This document shows positions 28,734-55,077 of a stretch of 64,000 nt of DNA, piece by piece. The notes beneath the pieces were generated by a model. It was not told where the DNA came from and did no database searches. It worked only from the letters and a program-made list of their open reading frames with translations. Both the position numbers and the translations under genes were made by a program. The DNA is from Sphaerolaimus hirsutus (Eukaryota > Nematoda > Chromadorea > Monhysterida > Sphaerolaimidae): assembly GCA_964036195.1 (NCBI GenBank), contig OZ038450.1, positions 27,964,794-28,028,793 on the forward strand, written 5' to 3'. The stretch's first letter is position 1. The number at the start of each line of letters is the position of its first letter.

Positions 28734-28735
28734 AA

Positions 28736-29765
28736 TAAAAGGGGCCCAGCGCAGCTGGCGTTTATGGCGCCAGCTGGCTGGGTGGTCGGGAGGTCGATTA
28801 TTTAATTAGAAAATGGTTAGCGTCTTACTCTGTATTTTAGGGGTTAATTAAGCAACAATCTGTGTACCAAATTCGTTTTTTATGGGGGTTTATTGAGAAA
28901 GAACTTGTGAATAAAATACATCAATTAATTAGCGATTAATTAGCGTTGGGCGAAAATACAACAATCATTAGGCAAAAATACGAAAAACAACTAGGCGAAA
29001 ATACGAAAAAACAGATGAAATTCCACACCAAAATAAGTGAGTGAATGGGGCTCGGGTTCTGCCAAAACAATAAAGAAATGACAGGCCCTGAACAGTGTGA
29101 AATGGGGCTGCAGCTACCTATTTGGGTCTTCAATGTGCACATATTTGGTTGATGAAATTCTAAGGCCCATTTCACAACTGATGCCTATTTTGGTGTGGAT
29201 TTCCCCTTTTATGCACAACTTTACAATGGGGGGGGGGTATTTAATCGTAAATGAAATACGCCTACTATAAATGGCTGTAAAATGTATCTTAACGACTTGT
29301 TTTTCCCCCCCTCAAATGCATGTGAAAAACAAGTCATTAACTGCCCAAGTTTGCTCGCGAAATGCGATTTGGGCAGTTAATAACGTAAATATGTGGCCCC
29401 CATTACACTAAAACGCGGGCGGCGCCACATATTTACGTGCGTGCACGCCCGCCGGCCCCCGTCTTACTGCGCGGACAACGGGTCCGCGCGCGCATTCCTG
29501 CGCCGCCACGCACGGCGTACTATGGCGCGGCGCGTTGTACTATGCAACGCGGGCGGCCCGTCGCGGCCGTTTGCGCGCGGCTGCGTGCGCATGAACTTTA
29601 TCGCATGCGCAATCTGCGCATGCGATTTTCGGTGGCCGCGGCGGTCCGCCCACGGCGCGATCATTAACGCAGATTATCATCACCAGTGTCTTGGTGATGA
29701 TAATCTGGCGTCAAAAAACGTTCATGGCGCCGGCGCCATAGTATGCCCCGCGTGGCACCCCTACA
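28736..29765 (-). repeat. 3' LTR
   Basis: On the minus strand it begins TGTAGGGGTGCC and ends GGGCCCCTTTTA. The first 350 bp are GC- and CpG-rich; the rest is AT-rich. It carries an AATAAA signal (plus 28889-28894 reads TTTATT) and three strong hairpins: 29670-29707, 29337-29380 and 29295-29334. Short open frames here are duplicated exactly in the other LTR and are not genes. Upstream on the minus strand a short purine-rich stretch, AAGAAGGG, could serve as polypurine tract. Confidence 0.95.
29670..29707 (-). promoter_or_regulatory. Perfect 16-bp hairpin in the LTR
   Basis: CAGATTATCATCACCA pairs exactly with TGGTGATGATAATCTG around a 6-nt loop. It lies about 58 nt into the LTR in the element's orientation. 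The second copy is at 54982-55019. Position and strength suggest an RNA structure near the transcript's 5' end if transcription starts upstream of it, or a palindromic protein site. Confidence 0.7.
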
Positions 29766-30036
29766 TTCGGCCCTTCTTGTCAACTGTAATGGCCTCATAC
29801 AGGTAAAATTAGCAAATATAGACGTTCGAGTAAGACATAAAAGCCGTCACCTTAGCGGTTGTTTGACTTTATATTTTCGTAAAAGTATAGACAAAATTTA
29901 GTTCAATTGATGGTTTTTATGTCAGGAAAAAACAAATGTCTGTATATACCTTCACCAAAAATGTATTCTTCTGATCATACGTTAAAATAATCACTTCGCA
30001 CAATCAATTGTCCAACCATGTGTCGTTTGTCCTAAT

Positions 30037-33000
30037 TCAGACGTGTTTTGTATCGACTACCTTATACATGTGTATGCAAGCGAGTGTATCATCCGTAGTG
30101 AATGTAACAGTGGTATTTACAATAAACCACAGCGAGATACAATGCATTCCCATGGGATAGGTTTGTTCTGATAATTTGTAGCGAAATCCGGCATCCTCTG
30201 GGTGGTACAGCTGCGCTGCGTAGCCAGTGGGCACGGTGATTTGTATTCCGGTGTTGAGGCAGCTGTGTGGCGGCACAAAGATTTTGAGTCGCCGTGGTTT
30301 GATATGCACGGTATTTCCTTCGGCACCATATGAGATGGTGTATTCGTGGGATTTGGTGGCATCGGCCTTGAGGTATCGGCATATTGGTGGTACCAGGTCG
30401 CACGGATGTGGCTGGCTGGTTTCTTCTGGTACTCGTGGAGTGGGCGCCACTGGGCGGCTGACGTAATTCGCCTCGTAATGCATGTCACCCCCATTCGGTA
30501 GTGGGGTCGTTTGCCACTCTTGCTCGTCTTCTGTCAGTTCTGGTTCGTCAAATAGATGGCGGCCCAGCTCACTGGTCTCATCTGATGTTGGTTTTCTGTT
30601 CCAGCGGATCATTCCAATAACCTTCTTCTTGGGGTTCAAGCGCAGATTGTACCGAGTGGCAGCCCTAGGAACCGCTGTCTGGTCTATTGTGGTTGGTGAT
30701 TGACTCATCACTGGCACTGCTGGCGGTGCAGGCACGTGAGTGTTGGCTGGTGGGTCAGCACTTGAAGCACCGGCTGTGGCTGTATCAGTGGGATTTCCGT
30801 CTGGGCTGTCTTCTGTCTCTTGGGCTGCTGGTTCTCCGTGGCCAAATGTCGGATAGGTGTCTTCCCGAGGGTACCATGTCTTGACCAGCATCGCTGGGAA
30901 CCGAGTTTCAGGGCCATCCGGCTCGTTCCATTTTTGCAGGTGCACCGTTTTTGGTGGATTTCCGATGAGTTTTGTAACCATGTATGGTCCAATCCATATG
31001 TCTTTGGTCTTTCCTGTCTGGTCTTTTGGGATTGTGAACGCTTTCTTTAGCACCAGACAGCCCAAATGCAATCCTTGGGGCTTTGTGCATTTTCGGTCAT
31101 GGACGGCCTTATTCTGTCTGTTCTGTTCTTGATTGGACTTGTTGGCAAAAGCCCAAATTCGCCTGAGCGTAGCCATCAGCGTGCTTATGTAGCTTGGATA
31201 TTCCATTGCTGTCTCAAATCTTTTTGGTTTCAAGTCCGCAGCCAATGTGGTTCTTGGCATCTGGCTGAAAACACAAGTGTATGGCGAGATTCCAGTTGCT
31301 GAGTGCACTGCCATACGATTTGCCATCAGAGCGAATGGCAGCCATACTGGCCAGTCATGGTGGTCCAGATCTCGCATGCAAGCAGCCAGCAGCCCCAGTA
31401 AGCTTCGATTGGCGCGTTCCACTATCCCATTGCTCTGCGGGTGGAATGGCGCCGTGCTGATCTTCCTGATTTTGAATAGCTTGGTTACTTCGGTGAATAT
31501 TTCGCCGGTGAATGATGCGTGGCAATCAGATGTTAGATATGCTGGTGCACCATATTTGCATATCCAGTTCTCCACCAACAACTGGGCAGCTGTCTTTGCA
31601 TCAGTTCGTTCCACCGGCCAGCCATCGGCCCATCGAGAACATTTGTCGACAACCAGGAACACGTAGCTGTGTCCTGAGTAGCTGGCTGGTAGCTCCAAAT
31701 GGTCAATGTGGATCCACTCGAAAGGTTGCAGACAGGGTTGTGTGTCCGGCATAGGCAGTCTGGTCTTTGGCACTGGTGCATTTCGCGCTTGGCAGTGTGC
31801 GCATGTTTTCACATAATTGTATATGTCTTGCCTCATTTCGGGCCAATAGAGGTGCTGTGCCATTGCGGAAAAGACTTTCCGGGCATTGAGATGTCCACCA
31901 ATTGTCGTGTCGTGGTGTTCTGCCAACATTTGCGTTCTCAGGGATTTTGGCACAAAGACGCGCATGCGTTTTGTTTTCTCTATCGGGTGTGTTGGGTTGC
32001 GCACATAAGCCAACAGATTTGGATATGCGAAGTGAGCCCCAAAACATGGTTGGTTACCCTGCTCCATCTGTTCAATTAGCCGTTGTGTTTCTCGGTCTTC
32101 TGTTTGAGCAGTTGCCAGCCTTTCCCTCCAGTTGTTTAACTGGGCGGGGTCTGGTTCACCCACATCTCGTGGTGATCGCAATAATGTCATAATGCGTGTA
32201 GGTGCTGGTTGTTCGGTTCCATCTTTTTCCACTATTGAGGGTTTCTTTGGTCCCTTGTATGGGTCCGGAATTGGTTCGTCTGGCACGTATGGCGGCAGTT
32301 CTCTCCACCAAGGACGCGCCTTGTGGATTTTGTTGTCGTTTAGTTCTATCTCCATCGGCGGATTGTCGATTCTTGTCAAGAGTTCCTGGTCCTCTCCCGT
32401 GGGTGCTCGGGAAAGAGCATCTGCGACCACATTTGCTTTCCCTGGACGATGTTTGACATCCAAGTCATAACCCGCCAATGTCAGGCAGATCCGCGTGATG
32501 TACTGTGAGTGCCCTTGCGCGTGCATGAGATACGCCAGCGCACGGCTATCTGTGTACACGGTGACTTGTCTGCCCATGCACAGGTGTTTGAATTTTTCCA
32601 GGATCCACGCCAGTGCTTCTGCTTCGCGAATCATTGCGTGGAAGTCGTTTCGATTATCTGACACCTTTGTTGATGCAAATGCAATTGGCCGTATTTCGCC
32701 CGTCTCAGGCTGGCATTGTTCTAGCACTGCTCCATAGCCATGTACTGGTGGGCAGGCCGCATCAACCGATATGATCAGGTCCAGCTCTGGGCGATAGAAT
32801 GCCAGCACCGGGGCCGTGACCATTGCCTTTTTGAGTGAGTCAAAGGCATTCAGTCTTTCTTCCGTCCATTCAAACTCTGTGGTGTCCTTCGTGAGTTCAA
32901 CCAGTGGTTTGGCAATGATTGAATAATTCCGAATGAAACGGCGATAGAATCCACACATTCCAAGGAATGACTTCACGCCAGTTCTGTTCTGCGGCAGTGG

Positions 33001-36000
33001 GAAAGCCTCGATTGTTTTTGTTTTCTGGATGTCTTGTTCTAATCCTTTTCCGGATAATTTAAAGCCGAGGAAGATACACTCGCTCACGCCGAATGAGCAT
33101 TTCTTCGCTTTAAATTTTAGTCTGAACATTCTGGCCCTATCCAGTAGTGTAGTCAGGTCAGCCAGATGCTTCTCGAATGTCGGAGAAGCGGTTAACAGAT
33201 CATCCATGTAAGCGAGGACACTTTTGTTGATGATTGGCTCGAATATGGTCGTAATTGCCCTGGCATATGATGCTGGTGCTGTGCTGAGGCCAAATGGCAT
33301 TCTGGTGAAGTGATATAGTTGGCCATTTGCCACACCAAATGCTGTCTTTTCAGCATCGTCTGGATGCATTGGCAGCTGCCAATAAGCTCCCAGGCAATCC
33401 AAACTGCTAAAGTATTTTGGATTCAATTCGGCTATTCGGTCAAATATCTCTGCTTGGTCTGGTGCTGGGAAAGCATCACTTTCGGTGATCAGATTTAGTT
33501 GCCTGAAGTCTTGGCAGAGGCGGTGTGTGTTGTCCTTTTTCTTGACCATGACAATAGCAGCGCGCCAAGGGCTATTTGACTTGACAATCACACCTGACCT
33601 GAGCATTGATTTTAGCTCGTCTTCAACCACATCTCGCAAGTGTGGCGGTGTGCGCCGTGGTGGCAGCTGTATTGGTGGCTTGCCATGTGTCCGGATACGG
33701 TGAAAGATATCACCAGTGATTGTGGTCAGTTCGCTATAATCTAGTGCGAAGCAGTCGTGATATTTCCGTAGCAACTCTGTCATCTGTTCCTTCTCTTCCG
33801 GCTCCAGTTTGTCTCCGAATTTCCAGGCAGCTTCGAGTTTTTCGAGTCTCTCCTCAAGGGCTTTTCCGGATAATGCCAACAGATCTACTTTATCTGGTTC
33901 AATGTTCGGTGTTCCTTGGTTTGTCAACTGGTTCACAGCATGTGCAGCCTGTGCTGTCGTCTGCCGGGCAAGTGGGATTGCCGTCCCCGCAATTTCCATG
34001 TGTCCGATTATTTCACCTTTTGGTAGACATCGGTGCTGTGCTGACATGTTGTAGATGTCGATTTTGAGCAGTTCATGTCCGCCTGGGACGCGGAAGTATG
34101 GCAGGCGTAGCCCCCTTATTTCTCGTGGTGATTTCGGGATGAATACAAGGTTCATCTGGGGGTCGCAATTTGGGAGACCAACCACAGCAACAGGGATTCG
34201 TTTTTGCGTGTTGCTGCGAATCAGTTCCCTTTCCACAAGCTTCACTGGCCACTGCGTTGTGGGTGGTCCTTCGGTGGGTGTTGAGTCACCCGTTGGACCC
34301 AGTCCAATCTGCTTTGTGCCGATCCATACTCTGCTGGTTTGGTAGCAGATGGTCAGACTGCGGAATCGGCGAAGTAGATCGCCGCCGATAAGGACCTCAT
34401 TATTGAGTTCTTTTGCCACAAAGAATTTCTGCTGTAAGGTCATTCCGGCCATCGTGATCCTGATGTCTACTTGCCCGGGGATTGTCAACGCATGGCCCGT
34501 GATGGACACCAAGCGATGATTGTCTGTCAGGGGTTGGATTGGGCCCAAACCCAGATCATGCACGATTTTCTCGTCAATTAGACAGCACTGTGCGCCTGAA
34601 TCTAACAAGGCAGCTAGAGTCGTGTTGGCGATATTGACTGCTACATACAGCAGATCCTGTTGGTTCACCATTTTTACTGCTTTGACTGCGTTGACCTGAG
34701 TCATTTCCGGCACGGTGGCAATGTGGGTGCCTTCGTTGTTGTATTGGATCGTTAACTGTCCAACTGCCTGCAGCGCATCATTTCCCAGTATCACTTGGTC
34801 TCCCAATTCGGCTGAAACATGCATTCGATGGGTCCACGATTGTTCTCCCATTCCAATTTCTGCTTGGATTATCCCTGTGATGGGCATTTCGTGTCCGGTA
34901 GCGGATGTCAGATTTTGTCTCTGGTCTGCTTGTGGCTCATATGGCAGACTGAGGATGTCAGCTAACATTTTTCCGATTATGCTGCACTGAGCCCCCGTAT
35001 CAATGGCAGCCATGACATATTCCCCGTTGATGGTGATTGATGTCATTGGCACTTCATCAGTGTCTTCTGGTTCCAGGCTTTTTACCATATTGACAATGCT
35101 GACAGGTCGGAGTTCAATGGTTTCGCCATTTATGGTGACACTTCGACCTTGGGTCAATGCTGCCACGTGCCCCTGGTGTCGGCTTGGTCTGAGTGGTTCT
35201 TCCATCACTGAGACTGTGAGTGGCACCGCAGCTTCAGTCACGGGATTTCGTGTTCTTTCGTGACGTTCCCGGAATCGATGGACTGCGCTGAAGCATCTGC
35301 TTAGTGTGGTGGCTTGTTGCCACAGCCATTTGGTGATATTGATGGCAACATCCAGCACATTGTGTGTCAGCTTAGCCCGTATGGCTAAGGGCAGGCAGCA
35401 TTTGGCCATGATAAAGCACCATGTTGCTGCCAACGGGATAATTGCCAGCCCAATGGCCCATTTAAGCCATGTGTGCTTTCCAGCTTGAGTCATGCCTGTG
35501 ACAGCAACATTTTGGGCTATTTCTCTGGTATTCTCTTCTGCTGTTTGTTCTGTCCTCAAGCCCAAGGTCTCCATGACCTCTTGATGTTTCTGGAGCACAT
35601 TGATCAGTTGTTCACGTGCATCCCAATCTGGTGAACTTTCAAAGGGGTGTAGCCGCATTGGTCTATTGACCCCTGGGTGCGGTTCTCTCTGTTCCTGGTT
35701 CTGATGGAGCAGGGGTATGTGTGGCAGTCCAGGCAGAGGGTGCAAGTCTCCGGTGGCTGCATTGTAGCGCCATGTGGCATTGTGGACCTTGACAATTTGA
35801 CCATCTGCTTGTGTGCATGGTATGTCATAGGCCTGTTTGGTCACAGTCAGAGTGGCTGTGTCCAGATAGAATGGCCCTTGTTCGATGGATGCGAATTCAA
35901 TCGGTATGTGATTTGTACAGTGACCGGAGGCTACATCCATAGGCAGTAGCTTGTACGTGCCGTTTGCTAGTGGTTGGCAGAACCAGACGTGCACTATGCT

Positions 36001-37095
36001 GTTCACTGTCTCAGCTACTAGGTATGGGTGCTGTAGTAGCATGCGCGCTGTTTCGGTTGGGTCAGCACGTAACTGCGAAATGGTCAGTGCGTGCAGTGTT
36101 CGCAGCATTTGGCAGTGTTTGACCATCAGGAATCTGAAGTAGAATCTCTGAGTCTGGTCAGCATGCAACTGCCGTAGTGTTGCTTGAGCGGCAATCTCTT
36201 CTGAGGTGTGCCTTTCTTCAGGAATGATGGTGATGTTTGTGAGTGGCTTAATGGAATGGTCACTCATTTCAACTGTCTGGACTGCAAATCCCTGGTCACT
36301 GACATAGAGCTGTTCGCCACAGTCTGTGATTTCACGTGGGCTCATGAAGGTCAGTGCTAGTTGATTGTCCGAGGAAATCCACTGACGTTGTAGGCTAATG
36401 CCAGCCATTTCTTTCCACAGTTCAAATCGGCATTCTGTGGTGGCATTGGCTTGCCAGAGCAACAGCTGCTGATCAGGTAGCACACAATTGTTGTCGCGAT
36501 AGCGACATTTGGAAATGTCGATTCCCAGTGTGGATTGCAGAGGGCCTTGTTGTTGCTGTCGGTAGATAGTAGTCTGTTGTACCGCGCATTGGGTCACATT
36601 TCTGGTTATTGTCCTGCAGCACCGGAAGGCACCGCGGGTTGGCAGTCTTGGCGGTGCATGTTGTGTGCGCCACTGCCCCAGACCAGATGGTTGCAAGTCC
36701 TTTGTTGTGATGCACTGGTGGTAATCGACCATACGCCGACATTCGTCGGTCGTCACAGCGATCGGCTCGTATGTGGTGCGGTCATAGCTGGTGTAGACGA
36801 AATTAGTATAGCGGGAATGCACCTCCTGCCATTTGGTGCACACATGGGCGCTTGTCACGTGCTGGTGGGAGTTCCGTCGATATAGCTGCAGCGTCAATTT
36901 GCCAGGCGCGGCAAATTCTGCCGTAGTGGAATAGTCACAGTCCGTGTTAGCGGGAAGATCGTAGTTTGCAGTCGGCGGGCGATCGGTCGGGCAGATCATT
37001 GGATCCAGTGCGTCGATGTGAACACAATAGAAAGCTAAAGTACAGGATACAAGTGCCTGAGTAACTCGCACATGGAAAGGAATGATAGCTAGCAT
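30037..37095 (-). CDS. Env-like / tandem protease / RT / RNase H / integrase / dUTPase-like polyprotein
   Basis: One 2352-codon frame. Residues 1-30 look like a signal peptide. About 31-540 is Cys-rich with several N-X-S/T sites (near 166, 217, 287, 378 and 439). About 545-572 is a membrane segment. Two aspartic protease domains follow, with DTGAQCS at 699-705 and DSGAQCC at 832-838. RT spans about 1140-1340 (RMPFGLSTAP, then YMDD at 1296-1299), RNase H about 1440-1562 (Asp1445, Asp1516, Asp1559), and integrase about 1720-1950 (HHCC zinc site; D1798, D1857, E1893, the D,D35E pattern). A GPY motif is at 2036-2038, and the C-terminal 130 residues resemble a dUTPase fold. RT, connection and integrase are Ty3/Gypsy-like. 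Env before Pro-Pol in one frame is highly unusual. The predicted topology keeps protease and Pol cytosolic behind a membrane anchor. The Env class is not identified. Confidence 0.95.
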   Translation of the reverse strand: MLAIIPFHVRVTQALVSCTLAFYCVHIDALDPMICPTDRPPTANYDLPANTDCDYSTTAEFAAPGKLTLQLYRRNSHQHVTSAHVCTKWQEVHSRYTNFVYTSYDRTTYEPIAVTTDECRRMVDYHQCITTKDLQPSGLGQWRTQHAPPRLPTRGAFRCCRTITRNVTQCAVQQTTIYRQQQQGPLQSTLGIDISKCRYRDNNCVLPDQQLLLWQANATTECRFELWKEMAGISLQRQWISSDNQLALTFMSPREITDCGEQLYVSDQGFAVQTVEMSDHSIKPLTNITIIPEERHTSEEIAAQATLRQLHADQTQRFYFRFLMVKHCQMLRTLHALTISQLRADPTETARMLLQHPYLVAETVNSIVHVWFCQPLANGTYKLLPMDVASGHCTNHIPIEFASIEQGPFYLDTATLTVTKQAYDIPCTQADGQIVKVHNATWRYNAATGDLHPLPGLPHIPLLHQNQEQREPHPGVNRPMRLHPFESSPDWDAREQLINVLQKHQEVMETLGLRTEQTAEENTREIAQNVAVTGMTQAGKHTWLKWAIGLAIIPLAATWCFIMAKCCLPLAIRAKLTHNVLDVAINITKWLWQQATTLSRCFSAVHRFRERHERTRNPVTEAAVPLTVSVMEEPLRPSRHQGHVAALTQGRSVTINGETIELRPVSIVNMVKSLEPEDTDEVPMTSITINGEYVMAAIDTGAQCSIIGKMLADILSLPYEPQADQRQNLTSATGHEMPITGIIQAEIGMGEQSWTHRMHVSAELGDQVILGNDALQAVGQLTIQYNNEGTHIATVPEMTQVNAVKAVKMVNQQDLLYVAVNIANTTLAALLDSGAQCCLIDEKIVHDLGLGPIQPLTDNHRLVSITGHALTIPGQVDIRITMAGMTLQQKFFVAKELNNEVLIGGDLLRRFRSLTICYQTSRVWIGTKQIGLGPTGDSTPTEGPPTTQWPVKLVERELIRSNTQKRIPVAVVGLPNCDPQMNLVFIPKSPREIRGLRLPYFRVPGGHELLKIDIYNMSAQHRCLPKGEIIGHMEIAGTAIPLARQTTAQAAHAVNQLTNQGTPNIEPDKVDLLALSGKALEERLEKLEAAWKFGDKLEPEEKEQMTELLRKYHDCFALDYSELTTITGDIFHRIRTHGKPPIQLPPRRTPPHLRDVVEDELKSMLRSGVIVKSNSPWRAAIVMVKKKDNTHRLCQDFRQLNLITESDAFPAPDQAEIFDRIAELNPKYFSSLDCLGAYWQLPMHPDDAEKTAFGVANGQLYHFTRMPFGLSTAPASYARAITTIFEPIINKSVLAYMDDLLTASPTFEKHLADLTTLLDRARMFRLKFKAKKCSFGVSECIFLGFKLSGKGLEQDIQKTKTIEAFPLPQNRTGVKSFLGMCGFYRRFIRNYSIIAKPLVELTKDTTEFEWTEERLNAFDSLKKAMVTAPVLAFYRPELDLIISVDAACPPVHGYGAVLEQCQPETGEIRPIAFASTKVSDNRNDFHAMIREAEALAWILEKFKHLCMGRQVTVYTDSRALAYLMHAQGHSQYITRICLTLAGYDLDVKHRPGKANVVADALSRAPTGEDQELLTRIDNPPMEIELNDNKIHKARPWWRELPPYVPDEPIPDPYKGPKKPSIVEKDGTEQPAPTRIMTLLRSPRDVGEPDPAQLNNWRERLATAQTEDRETQRLIEQMEQGNQPCFGAHFAYPNLLAYVRNPTHPIEKTKRMRVFVPKSLRTQMLAEHHDTTIGGHLNARKVFSAMAQHLYWPEMRQDIYNYVKTCAHCQARNAPVPKTRLPMPDTQPCLQPFEWIHIDHLELPASYSGHSYVFLVVDKCSRWADGWPVERTDAKTAAQLLVENWICKYGAPAYLTSDCHASFTGEIFTEVTKLFKIRKISTAPFHPQSNGIVERANRSLLGLLAACMRDLDHHDWPVWLPFALMANRMAVHSATGISPYTCVFSQMPRTTLAADLKPKRFETAMEYPSYISTLMATLRRIWAFANKSNQEQNRQNKAVHDRKCTKPQGLHLGCLVLKKAFTIPKDQTGKTKDIWIGPYMVTKLIGNPPKTVHLQKWNEPDGPETRFPAMLVKTWYPREDTYPTFGHGEPAAQETEDSPDGNPTDTATAGASSADPPANTHVPAPPAVPVMSQSPTTIDQTAVPRAATRYNLRLNPKKKVIGMIRWNRKPTSDETSELGRHLFDEPELTEDEQEWQTTPLPNGGDMHYEANYVSRPVAPTPRVPEETSQPHPCDLVPPICRYLKADATKSHEYTISYGAEGNTVHIKPRRLKIFVPPHSCLNTGIQITVPTGYAAQLYHPEDAGFRYKLSEQTYPMGMHCISLWFIVNTTVTFTTDDTLACIHMYKVVDTKHV

Positions 37096-38052: not shown

Positions 38053-41000
38053 TCATGTCCTCAACTCCACTTCTTTGTCCCTCATCCGGAAGAATTCTGC
38101 CGCTGTATGTGCCACAATACATGGCGGGCGCTTATCATAGTCAATTCTCAGCAGGGTGCATGCTCTCTGGTAGCGGTGGGGCTGCATGATGAATGCCCCA
38201 GTCTGGTGGATCATTGAGAACAGTTGGCGCCATTTCTCTGTGGTCTCTGACAATTTGAACATTGGCTCGAAGTCCGCGAGAATGGTCAGCGATCTCTGTT
38301 GGCGCGTCAGGGCGACGCAGAGACGCATCATGTTGGTCAAGTGCGTCAATTGTTTGTATCTGGTGTTGGCACTCCAACCGGGCACCAGCATTATGTCCGG
38401 CATCTGAGACCCTTGGGCTATGTCGCACGTGGTCACTCTGCCCCTGAGGTTTGTGATGCCCCTTCGTTTGAGCTCTGTCACATCATTCTCAAAATCTCTC
38501 TCAAAGTCTTTGTAGTAGGCCAGAACCCTTAATTCGTCAAACGCCGCATCTCCTGCTGCGTGATGCCATTTTTCCATAAAGGTCTTGAACTCTTTCCTCG
38601 TCTCTGGGCAATGACGCACCGTTTGTTCCCTCTCTGAATCTGTGACTGCTTTCTGGGTCTCCACGTCCACCCAATAGATGGCCGGCACGTAGATTTTCTT
38701 GCCCTGGCTGATTCGATATGGCAGTGGAAAACCGGGTGGTTTAGCCGCCATGTAACTCTCCTTGGTGGCTGGCAATGCTGGCGCTTCGAGTTGGCCCAAG
38801 TAGATCATGTTTTTCACCAAATTGGCATGTTCCGCGGAGGCCCGGTAAACCTGGCGCAGTCCATGTCTGTCCTCTGGGCGCAATATGGCGTTCATGCGCT
38901 CCAATGCGCTCTCGTTGAAAATGGTCTCCAGGATTCGCTTGGCTGGCACGTGCGATAATGTCGGCCTAGAAAGTTGGCGATCATCTCCGAGAAGCACCAC
39001 AATGAAGCGCCTCTGTATCTGGTCCTCCGCATTGAGCAGGCACAACAACTGGCAGAGTTCCAGCTTTGTCACCTTCGAGGCTTCCTCTACGATTAGCATC
39101 GAGAAACGGCTGTCTCTGATTCTGCTGAGCGCTGTGGATATGGTGGCAGTGACGATCTGATATCTGTTACTGATTGCGCTATCTATCTGAGCAGTTTCAG
39201 CCTCTTTTTGTTCCCTGCTCTTTTTGATCTCTTCAAACCAGCGCGGGGGCACTTGCTCGTCACGCGATAGAAAACGGTCTCCGGCGCGACGGGAGTCTTT
39301 GGAGCGCTCAGCCTGCTCGATGGTGCGTGAGGTGGCTTGAAGTCTCAGGTGTTGCCACCCCTTTGGGCATATCTTGCGCACGATGTCATTCTCATTTCGG
39401 TCAACCGCCCCATTGTCGGAGGCGACCAAAAGCACCTTAGTGGCCAACGGTTCTGTCTGGTGCCGCAATGCCCCTGATTTGAGGTGCTCCTCAGAGCCTG
39501 ATTGGGATGTTACAGTTTTCCCCGCACCGGCAGGGGCGCGGATGGCGATGCACTTTTCAGTTGTTCGGAGGGCTTTGATCACTGCACGTTGTCGGTCGTT
39601 CACTCCCTCGGGAAACTCGGTGGGGTATGTGTACACATACGGATCTTGAACGGCCGCCTCTATCTGGTTCACCAAACGCAGTTGGTTTGGCAGTAGGACC
39701 CGCATAATTTCTATATCCGCTCTGCATTTCCTTGGGTTGAGAATGGCGAAGGACAGCATAGCCCACATTTCCTTGTCATGATCCTCCCACGACTGATCGC
39801 TGGCCAGAACACGGACCTGGCTGGTGCGCATCATGTCGTGGCTCCTCAAGTACCTTTCCGTTGCTTTGGACAGCATAGTGACCCCAATCTCCTGGCATTT
39901 CCCATTGTTGCGTGGTGTGATGGATGTCACGGTTCCTGCCAGCTCCAGCTTGGGGTTGTCAAATGTCAGCTTAGCTGGCGTGCGGGTTGACCATGATGTC
40001 TTTGGATCGCGCTGGACCGTGACATGTCCGGTCAAGTAGCTGTAGTCATCCGCTATGATGAATCTGACCTGGGCTGACCATTTTGTTCTCTGCTTCTTGG
40101 TGCGCGTCAGAGCTAGTGTGAGTTTCGCTATGGCTGTCTCGTGGGACAGAGCCATTATTGCTTCAAAGATAGCGGATTGTTCTTCCTCTGTCTTTGTGGT
40201 CAGGATGGTGTCAATCCAGTGGTAAGCTTGCCAGAATTTGTACTCTAGGTGTATCTCTCTTTTTTCAATGGACGAATGCGCGGGCGCATTGGCTGGCGCG
40301 TGCGGATTGAAAGCCAGACGTGTTAGATCAGTGAAGCCATCTAATGTGGTCAGCTGGTGTTCAGTGAGTCCCTCTCTCTTCACGACTTTCGGTATGTCAA
40401 AACGCGGGAATATCGCTCGGATTTCTTCCGCCGTGGCAGCAGTCTGGCCGGGCTGGTGTGGGGCCAGATCTGCCATCCTTCTGAGGCTGACTATGCCGTT
40501 GATGATGGGTCTGATGTGTCTCCCACCACCACGTACACATGGGATCCAGAAGAGAGGCTGATTCTCTTGCAGGCTCTTGACAACTACTCGTGGGATTGCT
40601 TTGTCACTGATCCAGAATTCTTGCGTCATGCATCTGGCCGCTTGGTTTTCTTTGTTGAAGTGTTTCTGGCCCAGTATCTGAATTTCAGCTAGGGCATTCA
40701 CTTCTGACACAAGGTGGCTTTTCTTTCCCTGCTTTTTGCCAGTGATTGTGGTCAGGATGGTGACTTCGCAGCCTGTCCACCCAGTGGCTGTTCCATATTG
40801 TGCTATGGCCAAATAGTAATCTGGCACCATCTCTGCCCTGTGCTGCAGCTGCGCCAGGGTTGCGTGGATGTGCACGTGTGTCCATTGTCCTTTTTCGTTG
40901 AGGACAATGCTGGCTTCGGTGTTTACCAGTGTTTCCCATGGGACACTGAGCAGCAGCATTCTGAGTTTGTCTGGGTCTATTTCTAAGTGGAGTAGTGTCA

Positions 41001-43927: not shown

Positions 43928-43960
43928 ACGGGGTTCACGCATGAGAAGCGTGAACCCCGT
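43928..43960 (-). promoter_or_regulatory. Perfect 13-bp hairpin upstream of gag
   Basis: ACGGGGTTCACGC pairs exactly with GCGTGAACCCCGT around a 7-nt loop, about 600 nt before the gag start codon. It is followed by GCGCGC. Position suits a packaging or dimerisation structure in the genomic RNA, but function is inferred only from shape. Confidence 0.45.
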
Positions 43961-45545: not shown

Positions 45546-46613
45546 TGCTTGCGTACCCTGGCGCACTCCGTAGACTGGGGTTTGTTTGTAGCCAGTTAGC
45601 ACAGTAACACTGTCTGTAATTTAGGCAAAATTCTCCTAGATTTTGAAAACACAAGGGGATTTGTTGCTGAGTGTTTAAAGTACCAATTTTGGAGTGATTC
45701 TTTTGAACACGACACGTTTAGCCCAAAATATTGCTCAACTTGTTGATACTGAAAATTTGTAGCTTATTACAAGTGAGTGTTATCGTGCTATACAAGTTAT
45801 CGCGCTATACCGGCGCACAACAAAGCATGGTTTCATGGTCTGGAATTTTTGTGTGGTTGCAATTTCTTACCACTTGGTGGGTTGGCTTGCAGCACACGTT
45901 GGCGCAGTGACCTGCAAGTGGTTTTTTACCAGTTTGTGGGTGTTCTCGATTAATATAAAACTAAGAGTATTTTGGAATGGCATGAAATATTGGGTAATAG
46001 ATTAGTTTTTCGTGATAAATAAACGTAATTTTTATTTTTTGACTTGTCTTGACTTGCCAACTACATTTATCTGTAGAAAAATTAAAGATTTAGAATTTGT
46101 TTGGAAATTTAGAGTAAGCTTATTCAATGTTGATTTATGGAAACATTTGATGTCAAAAAGAGAGTCTGTAAATGGCACATTTTTCACAATTCGGATGTGG
46201 TTCATTGCGCTTGATCTCGTGCTCATATCCTATATAGATCTTATATTTTGGCACAGGGTGGATACTGAATTTCTTTAATGCCGACTGGAGAGCTTAACAT
46301 TGATTGGTCAATTTTAGATAAAAAAAAACTTTGTTACTTATATGGGTGGCATTTGGGTATTTCCACAAATTTCCGAAGTTTAGCGAAACGTAAAGCGAAG
46401 TTTCATAAGTTTTGAGCAGTCGTAACTGGGGATATGACTTTATGTACGACAGATTTGAGTTTGAAGGTAGGATTTAGATGTTGTTTTTATGTCTGGCATT
46501 CTATTTCTTGGCATAATTTGACATAAAATAATTCAAGTTTTTATCAAAATCGAAATTTATCAAAATATTATTTGAAACCAAATTTTAAGGAATATTCTTG
46601 ATATACATACTTA

Positions 46614-46615
<2 letters not shown>

Positions 46616-46653
<38 letters not shown>

Positions 46654-46672
46654 TACATATATATATATATAT
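46616..46672. repeat. TA microsatellite
   Basis: About 57 bp of alternating TA with two small interruptions, in the AT-rich part of the leader. Confidence 0.9.
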
Positions 46673-47430
46673 GTAAGTGTTGGTAGCTCATGGTTATTTG
46701 CAAAGTTTTTAATTTTATTGAAATTGAAATAATTTTGAGAGTCTTTCGTTTTCAATGGAAACGTAAAGTCTTTTGTCTTGATTGTAGTCTTATAGGAAAT
46801 AGTTTTTTTTTTTTTTTAATGCTAAAACATCATCAATGAGAATAGTTTGAGCAAGCATTTTCATAAGTATAGATATATAAAACACATCTATAATGCAAAT
46901 TTTAAAACTCAAAGGTGTTTCATGGCTGGGTGCAAAGCTCCTAGATCAAGTTCAATGAACCACATTTTCAAGTGTTTTGAACACTGTGCCAGATACACTC
47001 ATCCTTTAAAATATCATAATAATTGTTAAAGTATTAAATAATAATCAATAAATAGTGTCAATAATATTTTTGGCATGTTTCTAGTAGCTAGGTGAAAACA
47101 CTTGTTGCAATATTCCAATGGGGCTCCTAATATGCTTCATCAATAAGTAGGGTGGTAATAATACTTGGTTGGTATTTTCTAAATGCAAATAGATGAAGTG
47201 AGACATGTGATGTAATATGTTTGATATCAGATTGAGTCATGGAAAAAGTACATCAGACACTGTTACCTTCAGTTCTTTTGTTCAAAATTACCAATCTGGT
47301 TTCAGGAGTGATATTGTCCATCAGCCTGTTGTTGAAGGTTGACAGCATGAATAGAGCTCCAGTCAGGTACAGCTTTTTGGCAGTTGTGATGGCTATATGG
47401 TGTAGATCTGAAATATCAATTGGCCAGTGG

Positions 47431-47650
47431 ACAACATGTAAGGACATTTGTGTGTGTGTGAATTGGGGTTCGGGTTGTCCTGCCAGATAACTGACAGAGA
47501 CACCCTATCCTAACTGTCACCAAACCATATAAGCTGAAGAAACCAACAACATGTAAGGACATTTGATTGTGTGTGTGAATTGGGGTTCGGGTTGTCCTGC
47601 CAGATAACTGACAGAGACACCCTATCCTAACTGTCACCAAATCATATGAA
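47431..47650. repeat. Two-copy tandem duplication of about 114 bp
   Basis: ACAACATGTAAGGACATTTG starts each copy (47431 and 47545) and both continue through a TG run, GAATTGGGGTTCGGGTTG and a CCTATCCTAACTGTCACC stretch. The copies differ at only a few positions. Confidence 0.85.
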
Positions 47651-49276
47651 TAATACAACCAAAGCAATTTGAAGCAGCAAACATCAGCAATAAGCAAAGA
47701 TATATAAAAAAATCAAAATTCAAATACCAAGATTCAACAACAATTCAATATGAATCAAATATGCTTGAATACACTAGTCAACAATGGGTTTTGTTTGGTT
47801 GGATCCCTTGTTTGCAAATCCCCAGTGCAAAAGGGTAACAATAATACAGCAGTAGTAGGGAGAGTGGCTGTAACTTTCCCAGCCCTTCTAAAGCCACTGC
47901 AAGGCTTCAGGCACTTACTCAAATTCAGTGGGGCTAACACACATATTAAGTGTAGCAGGTAACCTAGCATTTTTGCTTCTCTCAGCAGCGGACGCACCTG
48001 TGCTATGACATAACTGAGAGGTCCTCACCTTGCCAGCTACAAGGGGAAAAGCGGGCTTGCCCATTTGTTCGGTGCGTCAATCACAGGCTAACCAAATATA
48101 TGTGGGTGGGTTATCAGTACCTAGGGGATTCATAGGCTACTGGTGCTAGAACTCAGCTACATAAGCACACTCCTCCCACCGAGGTATGTAGCAGCATTAG
48201 CGGGGTGCTAGCGTGATGTTCCAATCGCGGGTACACGTCTCTCACACGTGATACAAAGCCGCTTTTGTTTCCCCGCCGCTTCTGGAACTGCCAGAAGCTA
48301 ACATCAGCACAAAAGAGAACATTTCTGGATTGTTTTAGCTTCCCAAGAGGCTTTTTTGTTTTCCAGGCCTATGGGTAGAAGGGGAGCATAGAAGTCAAAA
48401 CCAGAATTTTTCTTTGACTCAGATAGTCAATTTTTTGTGTTTGTGAATGTCCCATTAGGAAAACTGCCATCTGGGGAAGCTGGACTAATTAACTGGGCTA
48501 ACTGCAATAATAGAATGGAGGCACAGTGCTTGCACAGTGTACAACAAGTGTAGACCCTTCAAATATCAAGCAACAACACAGTTAAAAGTCAGTTAAGAAA
48601 GTTTCAAGGTCATGGTTCAAACTGCACCAACACAACTGTTAAGTAGGGCTATGGGGAACTTGTCTGAATCCTTGTTGCAGCTAAAGTTGTCCCACTAGGT
48701 GCTTAAGCAGCAGTAATAGTACAGTGGCAGGTATAATTGCATACAACAGGGCTCTAAAAAAAAACAGTTTACAGAGTGCAAAGGTTGTAAATGTGAATAG
48801 AAATAAGTATGATGCAATAATATGATCAAAATGGTCAAACACAATACTTGGATACATAACACAATAAATGGATACAAAGAGCAAGAATTGGATACCAAAG
48901 ACAGCAGAATGGTTTCAGGATTGCAAACAATAGGAAAGAAAGAAACACAGAACCCAAAACAAATGAAAATACCCCTGGCCCACTGTTCTCCCTGTATCCA
49001 GGTCTGCATGGTGATCAGGCATGCTGAAGTGGTCTACAGCTGCAGTTGAGGTCAGTTATCTGTACGTGAGCTTTTGGGAAACTGTGTGAAAAGAAACTAC
49101 TTAAAATCCTGAAGTGAAGTTTCTGGAGTGGCATTTGCCAAAGTTTTCGCGGGGTGTCCCACTACTTATGGAACCAACCCCCAAATTTATTCCTAAGATT
49201 TATTCCTATATAAGATTGTTTTGCACTGGTTTTAGCAGAAAATCTGCTGTCCCACCACTTTTTGAACACCTCCTGT

Positions 49277-49555
49277 GTTCAGCTCGGACTACGGCAGGTT
49301 CCTGTTTCAAGTATTTTACTGTCCTGTTGTCTCATTACTTTTGGAACACCTCCTGTTCAGCTCGGACAACGAGAGGCATTACAGAATTTTATCATTTTAT
49401 TGTCCTGATGTCCTGTTCAGCTCGTACAACGAGAACGTGTCCTGTTTTGTCAGAAATTTTAACCTAACAGAACTTTACCCAACAATATTAATTTATACTG
49501 TTTTCTGTGTCACTACTTTTGTAAATCGTTCTGTGTTCGGTTCGGACCACGAGAG
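49277..49555. repeat. Four spaced copies of TTCAGCTCGGACAACGAGA
   Basis: Copies start near 49277, 49355, 49415 and 49535. Each is preceded by TCCTGT or CTGTG, and two by an ACTTTTGGAACACC-type phrase. The core is partly palindromic (CTCGG...CGAG). They look like a decayed tandem array or repeated binding sites. Confidence 0.55.
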
Positions 49556-50573
49556 AAAACAGTATGGTTCCTAATTTTAACAAAAATATCAAGTTATAAC
49601 CTAAATTAAAATTTCCTGAATCATCCCAACCCTACATGAAAGAACTCCTTAAGGTAACCTAGAATAGCCCACCGGTTTTCATGGATTCCTTTCCTATCCT
49701 TCCTCAATTCCTTCCTTTCCTTGTAGCTGCCTTCCGGTGATGCTGCAGAAGCGATAACGAAGAGCAGTGGCAGGTGCCAAAAGTTGGCACCTTGCCAACA
49801 CGAAAGCTGAGAGATTTTTGGGCAGGGTTATAGGTGAGTAGGGTACATGAGCACATGTGCCAAGTGCATTGTTGCCAAGCACACTTGGGTGAGCAGTTGA
49901 ACCTCCACTCTGGAAGTTCATACCTCCAGTGAAAATTCCGAATTTTGCTAGAAACATTCATTTTGAGCCATAAGTCAGCTCAGTACATCAAAATTTACTG
50001 TACCTGACACCAAATATTTTTTTTTTGTTGAAAAAACGGGGTCCTAAATAATTCTCTCGGGAAGGAAAAGTTGACGTACTTTTCACGTCAAAGAAAATGC
50101 AAATTGGGTCATTTAAATCATTGAATAACGGAAATTCGAATTTCGCAGTCCTTGTATTCTACCTGAAAAGTTCAAAACTTAAGTACTGTGTAAATACCTT
50201 TACATGTCTTTATTTTGGGAAAGTTCAATACTTTTAACAACCCTAGCTTCACATTTTTCTAGGCACTTGAAATTTCCACGTCACTTTATTCACTGAAAAC
50301 ACTGTCAACAAAAGTCTAGGGAACGTTTTCTAAGTAAAGTGTCTCGAAAAGACTGTATTTTAAAGGGGAGGGGGGAGTTATTCAAGTGAGTGCATTACTC
50401 TCAATGTATTTTCTAAATGACACTCGAGGGGTCCATTTCTCAAAGTTGGGGACTACCAAAATTCTAAGATCGAGTTAAGCATGGAAATGGCATCGAAAAT
50501 CGGTCCCGGACGCACATTTTTAATAATATATTTCCGCCGTGGAGGCATGAACTTCCCGAGCGGAATTTCTCAC

Positions 50574-50787
50574 TGGGCACCATACGCTGGATGTCAACTG
50601 AATCTGTGTCAACTAACTTTTAGTCATCAAAAGATTTTGACTGAGTTTGAAAGTACAAGAACTATTGCATACTCTGGCACTTCACTTTCAATTTGTGAAA
50701 AGAGTGAAGCATTTTACGAATTTTGTGTTATTTAGTTGACACCGAGTTGACACAAATCTGTGATGTCAACTAGCGTGAGCGAGCCCA
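50574..50787. repeat. GTTGACA-family element in the leader
   Basis: TGGGCACCATACGCTGGATG at the left mirrors GATGTCAACTAGCGTGAGCG and GAGCCCA at the right. Inner pair GTCAACTGAATCTGTGTCAAC / GTTGACACCGAGTTGACAC. It is the same subfamily as 28505-28733 in the host intron. Confidence 0.7.
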
Positions 50788-52839
50788 TTTTTACATTCAG
50801 CGTCAGCGGGTTTGGACGCTGTACTTGGCGGACATCACACTTAGTATGGAAACCGACCATAACCCCTCTGAATAAATCTCGCAAAATACTCATTTTGGCA
50901 CTTTTCGCTTTCTCATTTCAACGCGTGAAAGTTCAACAAAATACACATTTAGAAAGTTTTTTTGTTTAAACAATAGTTCTGGCGCCGGGTCAGTTTACAG
51001 AGCTGAAAAAGTAGTTACTTTCACTCGAAAGTGTGAACTGAACAAAATTCAGTTTATTTTATGTCAACTTGGCCCCATACGGTTTCTCATAATTTGATTT
51101 TAATTGTTTGAATGGTGCTGAAATCCACCGCGGATGAGCTTCACGCTCAAGTTTCGAAACAGGACTAATTTTAGACAAGCACCAAAAATTTCGATTTTAT
51201 CTGTACACTAATTTGACGTGTACTAGATTGAGGGGTACAAGAAATGTCCACTGAAAAGTGGACTTAAATCACTTAAATCCCAAAACATTTACCAAAGGAG
51301 TGAATTTGAAAATTTGAACTTGAAGTGTAAATAATTCCCTAACGGTGCATCTCAGGGCAAAACCAATTACACCACTGAGAAGCCCTTTCCGAGAAGTACC
51401 CAAACCTAAATTTTCAGAACTATAATCATACCCGTACTCGATTTATAGAGCAAACTAAATTTGGAAATGAACTTATTTTTGTACAGGAAATCCGGCCGGC
51501 TCTTCGCGAGCGACCGCTTTTGGGAACGGAAGTCCCCAAATGACAAATAAAATATAAAATGTCATTTCCGAGGTGATAGCTTCAAAATAGCTCAAATAGG
51601 TTGATATATTTCGAGGGGGGGGGGGGGGTAGGTGAATACGCGAGCGTTTTACCACATTCCTTCTAAAAAGGAAAACGTCCTTCTATTGGATACTGCCATT
51701 CAACTATTTTCTTGAATGCATGACATGTAAAATCTTGTCATTTGACAGTAGACGCGGTAAAGTGGCACTTAAATTTCTCTTATTTCAGTAGGCAATGGTA
51801 ACTAACATTTATATGTAGGTACCAAACGTTGTGGATATATAAAAAAAAAGGGGTTTACTTCATAAAGTTTCCTGGTCGCTGGTCGACACAGACTTCATTT
51901 ATGTCAAATATTTAGAATACGTATACTTTGAAAAGTTTGGTACTTTTCACAACTCTGCGCACCGAGCCGTGCGCCCCCTCTTGCCAAATTAGCGCGCCGC
52001 AGCGCTTAATCCCCTCCGCACACTTCATCATGACTTTACAAACACTCAAAGGGAACTTCTCTGCGTCGCAGAGCGCGACGCGGCCGGCGTCGTGAAATCC
52101 TGCCGCGACTCGGCAAGCGGCACCGCGGTTCGATTGGTATGGCGCCTCCGCGCCTCGGTTGCTGCTGCCATCGCGCCCACTGGACATCTGAAACTTTGTG
52201 AATTGTGTCAAGTGGAGTGGCATTGGAATGGGGTTCGAGTGGGGGGGGGGTCCCATCAGGACACCTGTCGACGGTTTTCCTCGTGTTATATTTCAATGGG
52301 GAAACTAACACCTCCTTTAAAAAGACTTTAGATGTAGGGTTTTGGCGCCGAGTTGATTTGGCGCTACACCCTGAAGTCAACTGGTTTCCGTGTCAACTCA
52401 AATTTTCATTTCGTGTGCCCAAAAATATTCTCGTAAATGGGGTATGGGCAATCACAGCAGTCTACCTAGAATAGCACCGTAAAGCCTTGAATAAAACACA
52501 TTTTATTTATTTACATGGAATAACGGGAAAACATTTTACCGTTAATCGGTGGGGGATTATTCAAGAAGGTATTATTTCGCCAGACTTTTCCAGAACGTGG
52601 GGACTTGGGGATTTTGACTTTTGGAGACTAGGTTGACATAGAGCGTCTACCGTAACTTCATGAATAAAAGTAGACTTTATTATTCATGGTACTAAGTATT
52701 TTCCAAGGGAACTTCGGCTACCAGAAACTTGAAAAAACCGAAAAGCTTGAATCTTTGGTGGAAATGAGTGTTTCTAGGTGAACTGAATAATTTTTACATT
52801 ACGCATACTTTCAAAAAGTGTACTTTTGGGCACTTTTTG

Positions 52840-53340
52840 CACTTTCGGGCGCAGCACAACCAAGTGTGCTCGCACCGCGCCGATCCAAACCGCTCCCCGC
52901 AAACTCAAACAACTACAAAACGTCAACCCCCTGGAACGCAGGTGACGTTGGCGTCGCGCTGGCGGTCGACTCGCCGCCGCCGCGGCGCGTTCGGAATCGA
53001 GGCTGCAGTTGCTGGAGCCGTCGTCGCCCGCCGCGCGGCAGCGGTCCTTGCGCCCATCGACATTGCCGACCCCTCGCTGGGGCCGAGGGCGTGGGCGCGC
53101 TCGTCGCCGGCGCGCGGCCTTGTCCACCGCCGCGCAGGCGAAATGGTGCCGCGGCGTGCTCGCGGTCGACGTTGCCGGAGCCGTTGTGGCCCTGCGCGCG
53201 GCGGCGGCCGGCCCGTCCATCGACGTTGCTGAACCGCGCTGGCCGCCGAGTCGGTGTGATTGCGCTGGCCGTCGCCTGCGGCGTGGCACCTTCCACAGCT
53301 GCGCCAGGCGTGCTGAGTGTTTTGGGGGGGGGGCTTGATC
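52840..53340. other. GC-rich block with internal repeats
   Basis: About 500 bp of CpG-rich sequence. Long open frames exist on both strands in several phases, which is a composition effect. A degenerate unit recurs (GCCGTCGTCGCCCGCCG near 53012 and GCCGTTGTGGCCCTGCG near 53180, each followed by CCATCGACNTTGC). Confidence 0.5.
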
Positions 53341-53357
53341 GGAGCAATGGCACGAGA

Positions 53358-53548
53358 GGTCACACACGCGGGAAGTCAACTGACTTCCTGTCAACTAAAA
53401 TTTAGTATGTAAATTCAAAATATCTCATCGAGCAGACTTAAATTTTTACCGTTTTTGTCAAGCGTGACGATTTGAGCACCCTATTTGTAATACTTAGTTG
53501 ACAATTGAGTTGACACGAATTCGCGATGTCAACTAGCGTGTGCGGACC
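53358..53548. repeat. GTTGACA-family element next to the GC-rich block
   Basis: GGTCACACACGCGGGAAGTC at the left mirrors GATGTCAACTAGCGTGTGCG at the right, with the inner TTCCTGTCAACTAAA / AGTTGACACGAATTCGCGATG pair. Confidence 0.65.
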
Positions 53549-53970
53549 CTTTTCTGGTCGACTCGCACTCTCGTAAAGTGCATCAAATGTCAGTCCAGAC
53601 TAAAATAAGTGCGAGTGCAGAGTATCAAGTCCGCCGAGAGTACTCAGCGTACTCCCTTGATTTTTGAGTAGTTTTTTTGAAGGCAAAAAAAACGGTTGCT
53701 TTGCAACTCATAATTTCGCAACACCCTCAACTCAAACTTCATCGAAAATTTATCCACGTGAAATCCTCCATGGCGGCGCGCATTTTATTGTGCCGCCGCA
53801 CATTTTCGGTAAACTTTCCTGTATTTTTCCAGCTGGTGGTGAAGTCTCCAGCCGCTGCGTTGGAGCTCGTCGGGACGCCCTAGCGGTCACGTCTTCAGCA
53901 AGCTGCTTGTGGGGGGTTTTTGAGGGGAAATAGGGTAGAAAAATAGGACTTTCTAGCGGAAAAATAGGTT

Positions 53971-54045
53971 TTCCGGTTCGCTCAGGGTAGAGCATTGGAC
54001 TCTTAATCCAACCGGTCGTGGGTTCGAGCCCCACATCGGGAGCCA
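53971..54045 (-). promoter_or_regulatory. Primer-binding site: complement of a whole tRNA-Lys(CUU) with CCA
   Basis: The plus strand reads as a near-complete tRNA. The 7-bp acceptor stem (TTCCGGT with ATCGGGA) pairs fully with two G-U pairs. There is a D arm GCTC...GAGC, an anticodon arm TTGGA-CTCTTAA-TCCAA with anticodon CTT, and a T arm GTGGG-TTCGAGC-CCCAC, then discriminator G and CCA. Animal tRNA genes do not encode CCA. It lies 2 nt from the 5' LTR, exactly where a primer-binding site belongs. The primer is therefore tRNA-Lys(CUU), but complementarity runs over about 75 nt rather than the usual 18. Whether it also acts as a tRNA gene is unknown. Confidence 0.88.
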
Positions 54046-54047
54046 AT

Positions 54048-55077
54048 TAAAAGGGGCCCAGCGCAGCTGGCGTTTATGGCGCCAGCTGGCTGGGTGGTCG
54101 GGAGGTCGATTATTTAATTAGAAAATGGTTAGCGTCTTACTCTGTATTTTAGGGGTTAATTAAGCAACAATCTGTGTACCAAATTCGTTTTTTATGGGGG
54201 TTTATTGAGAAAGAACTTGTGAATAAAATACATCAATTAATTAGCGATTAATTAGCGTTGGGCGAAAATACAACAATCATTAGGCAAAAATACGAAAAAC
54301 AACTAGGCGAAAATACGAAAAAACAGATGAAATTCCACACCAAAATAAGTGAGTGAATGGGGCTCGGGTTCTGCCAAAACAATAAAGAAATGACAGGCCC
54401 TGAACAGTGTGAAATGGGGCTGCAGCTACCTATTTGGGTCTTCAATGTGCACATATTTGGTTGATGAAATTCTAAGGCCCATTTCACAACTGATGCCTAT
54501 TTTGGTGTGGATTTCCCCTTTTATGCACAACTTTACAATGGGGGGGGGGTATTTAATCGTAAATGAAATACGCCTACTATAAATGGCTGTAAAATGTATC
54601 TTAACGACTTGTTTTTCCCCCCCTCAAATGCATGTGAAAAACAAGTCATTAACTGCCCAAGTTTGCTCGCGAAATGCGATTTGGGCAGTTAATAACGTAA
54701 ATATGTGGCCCCCATTACACTAAAACGCGGGCGGCGCCACATATTTACGTGCGTGCACGCCCGCCGGCCCCCGTCTTACTGCGCGGACAACGGGTCCGCG
54801 CGCGCATTCCTGCGCCGCCACGCACGGCGTACTATGGCGCGGCGCGTTGTACTATGCAACGCGGGCGGCCCGTCGCGGCCGTTTGCGCGCGGCTGCGTGC
54901 GCATGAACTTTATCGCATGCGCAATCTGCGCATGCGATTTTCGGTGGCCGCGGCGGTCCGCCCACGGCGCGATCATTAACGCAGATTATCATCACCAGTG
55001 TCTTGGTGATGATAATCTGGCGTCAAAAAACGTTCATGGCGCCGGCGCCATAGTATGCCCCGCGTGGCACCCCTACA
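54048..55077 (-). repeat. 5' LTR
   Basis: The same 1030 bp as the 3' LTR with no difference noticed on reading. The minus-strand start is TGTAGGGGTGCC and the end GGGCCCCTTTTA, followed by AT and the tRNA complement. The hairpin copy is at 54982-55019. Its outer edge is 15 nt from the HSP60 exon 8 donor. Confidence 0.96.

Follow-up and report, generated by a model that had tools for sequence, protein, structure and literature searches.

How does a retroelement come to carry a helicase gene between Gag and an envelope-like (Env-like) region, and what could such a helicase do for it? This question was raised by a stretch of 64,000 nucleotides from the nematode Sphaerolaimus hirsutus (GenBank assembly GCA_964036195.1, contig OZ038450.1, positions 27,964,794 to 28,028,793 of the forward strand), here called the window, which lies on a 34-Mb contig in a genome of 348 Mb and 762 contigs. 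We found that it contains a complete Ty3/Gypsy-type long terminal repeat (LTR) retroelement of about 26 kb on the minus strand (55077 to 28736). Instead of 18 nucleotides (nt), the primer binding site of this element comprises the complement of an entire mature tRNA-Lys(CTT) with its CCA. As the best overall explanation we consider it rather probable that this is a recent Ty3/Gypsy-type element with an Upf1-like helicase at the joint of Gag and Env, a Gag without zinc knuckle, an extended tRNA site and priming that is aided by the helicase.

A complete element and its gene order in the genome

In the sense of the element the order is 5' LTR, a 2-nt spacer, the tRNA-complementary primer site, a leader, Gag, helicase, the Env-like region followed by two proteases (PR), reverse transcriptase (RT), RNase H and integrase (IN), and 3' LTR (Table 1). 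All three open reading frames (ORFs) are uninterrupted, with 157 nt between Gag and helicase and 957 nt between helicase and ORF3. A first-pass annotation had described an intact, recent insertion with identical LTRs, a duplicated CCCAA and three long ORFs in the order Gag, superfamily 1 (SF1) helicase and Env-like region fused ahead of protease and Pol, and our analysis bore this out, with 0 differences between the LTRs over 1,030 nt and CCCAA at both ends of the element. Pfam detected Retrotrans_gag (E 5.6e-7) and AAA_30, AAA_12 and AAA_11 (E 2e-10 to 1e-9) in the first two ORFs, and two aspartic protease stretches, RVT_1 (4.6e-24), RNase H, Integrase H2C2 and rve in ORF3. The Env-like region occupies about residues 1-640 of ORF3, followed by DTGA near 697, DSGA near 830 and YMDD at 1296.

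The two LTRs and the 5-bp target-site duplication (TSD) agree with an LTR retrotransposon (TSD of 4-6 bp), and the PR-RT-RNase H-IN order seen with Pfam is that of Metaviridae (Ty3/Gypsy), the RT tree being built without Copia or BEL outgroups. Some of the best database relatives are named Gypsy or K02A2.6-like. In the sense of the element the LTRs start with TG and end with TTTTA, in the window as well as in two further copies (C9 and C2) and a single LTR, and thus depart from TG...CA; we treated this end as a variant that does not exclude membership of Metaviridae. The element has a retrovirus-like gene content (gag, env-like, pro and pol) and is probably autonomous.

Table 1. Features of the retroelement in the window (positions in the window; strand relative to the forward strand).
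Feature	Positions	Strand	Basis or remark
Target-site duplication CCCAA, left copy	28731..28735		Sequence read
3' LTR, 1,030 nt, TG...TA ends (element sense)	28736..29765	-	Same as 54048-55077 at 1,030/1,030 positions
ORF3, 2352 amino acids (aa), Env-like + two aspartic proteases + RT + RNase H + integrase + C-terminal extension	30037..37095	-	ORF list, Pfam
Env-like domain, in frame with Pol	35176..37095	-	Leader peptide, Cys-rich ectodomain, transmembrane (TM)-like segment
ORF2, 1155-aa SF1 (Upf1-like) helicase, motifs I-VI	38053..41520	-	Pfam, PDB profile, motif table
ORF1, Gag (Retrotrans_gag), no CCHC knuckle, basic stretch at C-terminus	41678..43327	-	Pfam
Leader, 10.6 kb	43328..53970	-	Separates Gag from the primer site
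Extended primer binding site, complementary to tRNA-Lys(CTT) nt 27-76, CCA included	53995..54045	-	51 nt here, one base inserted
Whole antisense tRNA-Lys(CTT), CCA encoded, 2 nt from 5' LTR	53971..54045	+	ARAGORN; Rfam RF00005, 52 bits
5' LTR, 1,030 nt	54048..55077	-	Pairwise LTR comparison
Target-site duplication CCCAA, right copy	55078..55082		Sequence read

A genome search with the LTR gave 11 matches, corresponding to four two-LTR insertions (the window element, C9, C2 and C16), one single LTR and two fragments. The LTR pairs differ at 0 of 1030 positions in the window, 1 of 1027 in C9, 3 of 1073 in C2 and 0 of the 252 compared in C16. The TSDs are CCCAA for the window, TTGTC for C9, AAATT for C2 and AATAC for the single LTR, the last three being read by eye. 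Gag, helicase and Env of the window, C9 and C2 share 99-100% protein identity, except for the C2 env, which is split by about 1 kb and has a second piece with 96% identity and one stop. In the C16 copy, which has kept the whole tRNA copy, env has six stops, and gag and helicase gave no match. These comparisons indicate that the family has transposed recently, including at least one defective member. As C16 moved recently without a helicase match, we take it that any help from the helicase can act in trans. Copies without helicase or Env between the same LTRs had been named beforehand as a finding that would speak against this gene order; three of the four two-LTR copies carry all three genes and C16 lacks gag and helicase matches, a mostly supportive outcome.

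The genome counts that follow are lower bounds, since the best candidates were scored, and a missing match is not equal to proven absence. Before the gene order was counted, from hand-copied coordinates, 13 of 51 helicase, 4 of 70 env and 9 of 64 gag matches were dropped as second pieces of counted loci, and 28 env matches at 25-29% identity, belonging to a sister family, were kept apart and compared with the helicase loci by eye. The 51 helicase matches represent 38 loci. At 29 of these, on many contigs, the helicase is preceded by gag and followed by env, all on one strand. The same order at so many loci excludes chance or misassembly. One other locus (C652) has gag and no env match, its contig stopping 3.2 kb beyond the helicase, and the remaining eight have no gag or env match nearby. 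When 30 helicase loci were read with 1.5-kb flanks, gag was present at 26 and env at 23.

The helicase frames measure 1,113-1,183 aa at 24 of the 38 loci (22 stop-free) and 1,324-1,362 aa at four more; in the subfamily of L037 and L038 (frames of 1324-1362 aa) the helicase frame contains an insertion. Outside the own family the identity to the window helicase is mostly 43-48% over long matches, and env is better conserved, with 55-67% over longer matches. In all, 18 env matches lie in stop-free frames of 2,354-2,424 aa. Env, PR, RT and IN were in one frame at both downstream stretches that were read, L039 (2365 aa) and L043 (1859 aa to the end of the locus).

Of 55 gag loci, 25 (e.g. C1:27471028) had no helicase match within 6 kb, four of them with a short env piece behind gag; in 20 of the 25 the gag frame measures 543-589 aa, and one of these frames has a stop. 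The sole gag-only locus read behind gag (L068) contains a decayed helicase remnant, and gag loci without helicase therefore look like deletion derivatives. Around four helicase-only loci (L014, L015, L016 and L017) no gag, env or pol match was found in 1.5-kb flanks. The same held for 6 kb to either side of L014 and to one side of L016. The tRNA primer site is present upstream at three helicase-only loci (C551:15515, C16:9.98M and C1:31.33M) and at three gag-only loci, so that these seem to be independent elements.

The helicase and the Env-like region

A profile of ten helicase members gave its best PDB match with Nam7/Upf1 structures (E 4e-8); the single window sequence gave no PDB homologue. 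Pfam detected AAA_11 and AAA_12 in all ten members and Viral_helicase1 in seven. All motifs I-VI were found in the window protein, as expected of an Upf1-like SF1 helicase; motif I reads SPAGSGK in three of the ten members and thus falls outside the APAG pattern. We rejected Upf1 proper, the factor of nonsense-mediated decay (NMD), as the match is limited to about 285 core profile positions and no CH zinc or other domain was found with Pfam; TIGR00376 scored 38 bits, far under its cut-off of 349. The helicase is under purifying selection: the ratio of nonsynonymous to synonymous substitution rates (dN/dS) is 0.098 for the window versus C9, 0.090 for the window versus C2 and 0.09-0.12 within the family (3 pairs), and 0.14-0.21 among the four helicase-only members (L014-L017, 6 pairs), in which the helicase is intact. 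Beyond this genome, no homologue of helicase residues 560-1130 was found in a set of 5.8 billion proteins, with the best 7998 candidates scored, and none was confirmed in IMG/VR contigs. Such protein-set searches are confined to relatives that have exact 5-residue words in common with the query, and the contig scans to those that fit two short peptide patterns.

The Env-like residues 1-640 of ORF3 resemble a type I membrane glycoprotein, with an N-terminal hydrophobic leader, 22 Cys, six N-glycosylation sequons and one TM-like segment (548-566), and may function as Env. They align with the Gag-protease interval of the polyprotein P0098 over 404 columns (hhalign E 2e-19, probability 99, 24% identity). 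In an RT tree (FastTree, about 60 sequences) the window element, L039 and L043 cluster with P0098 with a support of 0.94. Neither a Pfam Env match nor a match to a known fusion family was found, which counts against the account, and an AlphaFold model from a two-row alignment was unusable (predicted local distance difference test, pLDDT, 29.5). The comparison with PDB gave nothing meaningful (best E 0.53), the 5.8-billion-protein set held no homologue of the Env-like part and none was confirmed in IMG/VR.

The 28 sister-family env matches, with frames of up to 2,228 aa, were by eye not seen at any helicase locus. At L067, the sole locus of this family that was read upstream of env (1.2 kb), a CCHC Gag is in frame with Env. 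Ahead of the helicase, no CCHC pattern occurs in any frame of more than 150 aa within 1.5 kb at any of the 26 loci with a gag match there. Since Gag is fused to Env in the relatives without helicase, the helicase ORF sits at the Gag/Env joint. The simplest history would be that the helicase was inserted at this joint of a Gag-Env-Pol polyprotein and that the knuckle was lost, a direction that we infer.

The tRNA primer site and a possible role of the helicase

The textbook view is that retroviruses and LTR elements prime from a site of about 18 nt and that plus-strand strong-stop DNA halts at m1A58. A 75-nt tRNA query of the genome gave 36 matches, of which 17 were of host type (the match ends by nt 72) and 19 of element type; 17 of the latter were aligned, leaving out C9:7127896 and C13:23512937. 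The exact 18-nt tRNA-Lys site occurs 11 times, compared with 0 for a reversed-pattern control. Ten of these sites were read (C3:23631, outside the listed matches of the 75-nt query, was left out) and all ten reach at least tRNA nt 27, that is 50 nt; in many cases the complement spans all 76 nt. Compared with the host tRNA they show 5 differences in 310 positions of nt 27-57 and 60 in 250 of nt 1-25; nt 58-76 are perfect, which for nt 59-76 follows from the choice of the set. The break at 26/27 is seen in the C551, C7 and C6 sites, where nt 1-25 have 11-18 differences and nt 27-57 have 0-1. Position 26 is a dimethylguanosine site in many eukaryotic tRNAs.

CCA is encoded in the element sites and in none of the seven host tRNA-Lys gene copies that were read, so the source is mature tRNA. 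At the diagnostic positions 44/68 five of the ten sites are of isodecoder-1 type, three of isodecoder-2 type and two mixed, and both host types occur within one LTR family (the window and C16 versus C2). The immediate flanks of the sites look unrelated between families. In the window copy the D-arm region is damaged and the B-box stretch is intact. The C9 copy has a further tRNA-like stretch in opposite orientation, about 1.7 kb into the element (C9:7127896-7127960).

We propose the following route from the sequences. The helicase, replacing a zinc-knuckle nucleocapsid, would unfold the tRNA and the long genomic RNA, and the unfolded primer would pair over 50 nt or more. The reverse transcriptase would then copy the primer through m1A58 to about position 27, in some cases as far as the 5' terminus. 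With this longer plus-strand strong-stop DNA, second-strand transfer would be completed on the equally extended primer site. The element primer sites offer complementarity to such longer run-through products. According to a published review, nucleocapsid unwinds primer tRNA, plus-strand strong-stop DNA normally ends at m1A58, copying of unmodified tRNA runs on to the 5' end and only some run-through products are usable (PMC13191261). The link between the helicase and the long tRNA complement is put forward as a hypothesis.

Several observations weigh against this account. C16 combines a whole tRNA copy with no helicase match and 0 LTR differences in 252 positions, and the tRNA site is likewise present at three gag-type loci that gave no helicase match, so the helicase is not needed in cis. 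Only 9 of the 29 full-order helicase loci have an extended tRNA match within 20 kb upstream (20 have none), and the primer site of C9 no longer matches the tRNA. At six sites (L059, L060, L061, L062, L064 and L065) the pattern is reversed, with 0 differences in nt 1-25, 0-2 in nt 27-57 and 6-7 in nt 58-76; the break falls near A58, and the altered last stretch is possibly a primer switch. A seventh site (C2:8.98M) is altered in all parts. Renewal of the tRNA copy from the primer pool is weakly supported, and the proposed link comes from primer sites of the helicase clade. A broader version we offer tentatively, as a possibility rather than an expectation: the helicase would replace the zinc-knuckle nucleocapsid, pairing would extend over 50-76 nt, copying past m1A58 would be normal with a stop near 26, the tRNA copy would be renewed from the host pool, and members with gag alone would be complemented in trans by members with helicase alone, and the reverse, as a loosely multipartite retroelement.

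A different explanation, which we find possible but on the whole doubtful, is that the tRNA complement survives as a fossil from a single chance event in which a reverse-transcribed tRNA was captured, and that the helicase is an accessory gene with an unrelated role in silencing suppression, RNA export or protection of the long polycistronic RNA from NMD. The Upf1-like core would suit such a gene, several elements show decay in the 5' third of their tRNA copy, and C16 kept its tRNA site and moved without helicase. SF1 helicases of insect retroelements were reported, in the accessible part of the study, to suppress silencing weakly and were termed accessory (PMC6338049). However, a relic is expected to decay evenly, yet a boundary is seen at 26/27, nt 27-57 remain at 5 differences in 310 positions in ten elements whose flanks look unrelated between families, and two host isodecoder types occur inside one LTR family.

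That the antisense tRNA serves the element as an active Pol III gene or as an insulator, unrelated to priming, is very improbable. ARAGORN and Rfam do call a tRNA and the B-box stretch is intact, but CCA is encoded, the stretch ends 2 nt from the LTR, precisely at the primer site, no T-run terminator is found in the 25 nt behind it and the D-arm of the window copy is damaged. Hardly any weight is left for a host helicase gene trapped between LTRs, or for separate elements joined by the assembly, as suggested by the eight helicase loci without gag or env match nearby, given the same order at 29 loci on many contigs with mostly 43-48% helicase identity, four insertions with four different 5-bp TSDs, and the primer site of the clade upstream of three of those eight loci.

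Insertion site, known elements and significance

The element is inserted in sense orientation within an intron of a GroEL/HSP60-type chaperonin gene (27099-28146 and 55093-59141) with a GGM repeat in its last exon; from the inferred 5' splice site to the start of the LTR there are 15 nt of intron. The leader has a G+C-rich part (52768-53405) with open frames overlapping on both strands; the one frame examined by Pfam (52774-53394) gave no family match. The C-terminal extension of ORF3 (30037-30945, after integrase) is also conserved in L039, had no Pfam match and gave a best PDB match of E 0.18; a dUTPase, suspected there by eye, received no support. Elsewhere in the window, inverted repeat pairs at 10781-11192 and 20858-21255 (94% complementary over 215 nt and 91% over 127 nt), separated by about 10 kb, are perhaps a DNA transposon.

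Errantivirus/Gypsy elements and retroviruses have gag, pro, pol and env-like content with env after pol, a primer site of about 18 nt and no helicase. The window element is alike in gene content and differs in Env before Pol, the helicase and the long primer site. The first-pass annotation knew of no element with this order, which is not supported in that form. Env in frame between Gag and Pol is known from planarian Burro (PMC6431247), which like the window element is a Gypsy-like LTR element of giant size, its internal region reaching up to 25 kb, with an Env-like region in frame ahead of protease and Pol and with extra non-retroviral domains. Compared by description, Burro has one giant Gag-to-Pol ORF1, whereas the window element has three ORFs with the helicase between Gag and Env; the accessible part of the Burro report describes CCHC knuckles and BIR, BCL2 and SUMO-like domains, and no helicase or long tRNA primer site (PMC6431247). 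P0098 (2847 aa, Gag-Env-PR-PR-RT-RNase H-IN, on a contig of 15,269 bases), the closest RT relative, shares the homologous Env region, the doubled protease and Env before PR. Unlike the window element, P0098 and the sister-family locus L067 have a Gag-Env fusion with a CCHC knuckle and no helicase between. Another polyprotein, P0022 (2293 aa, Gag-Env-PR-Pol, with a Monjiviricetes_fusion domain), likewise has Env between Gag and protease, but is a single polyprotein without helicase, and its Env stretch showed a similar motif by hhalign that was not significant (E 0.019, probability 2.4).

SF1 helicases have been described from insect LINEs and from two fusions of Copia type (PMC5563155). These were likewise acquired by retroelements, but they are fused to LINE ORFs or Copia domains and are of viral replicase type, whereas the window element has a separate ORF with Upf1/Nam7 as best match (PMC5563155, PMC6338049, both in part). 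Troyka, described in the accessible part of PMC12440569 with CG...CG ends, a 3-bp TSD and no env, was rejected as a match for an element with TG...TA ends, a 5-bp TSD and an Env-like region, and Odin was considered from a partial source and dropped. A literature search, with most subscription journals outside its coverage, gave no report of a Gypsy element with a separate helicase ORF or of a whole-tRNA primer site.

The gene order is thus real, common to many relatives and partly precedented: Env before Pol is not new, and within the reach of these searches neither a helicase with its own ORF in the interval from Gag to Env-Pol nor the long tRNA complement has been described. The element adds a further lineage with Env ahead of Pol and shows that a giant retroelement can stably build in an extra replication enzyme. 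A clade with a 50-76 nt tRNA complement, its own helicase and a knuckle-less Gag would make the division of labour between nucleocapsid, reverse transcriptase and helicase directly testable.

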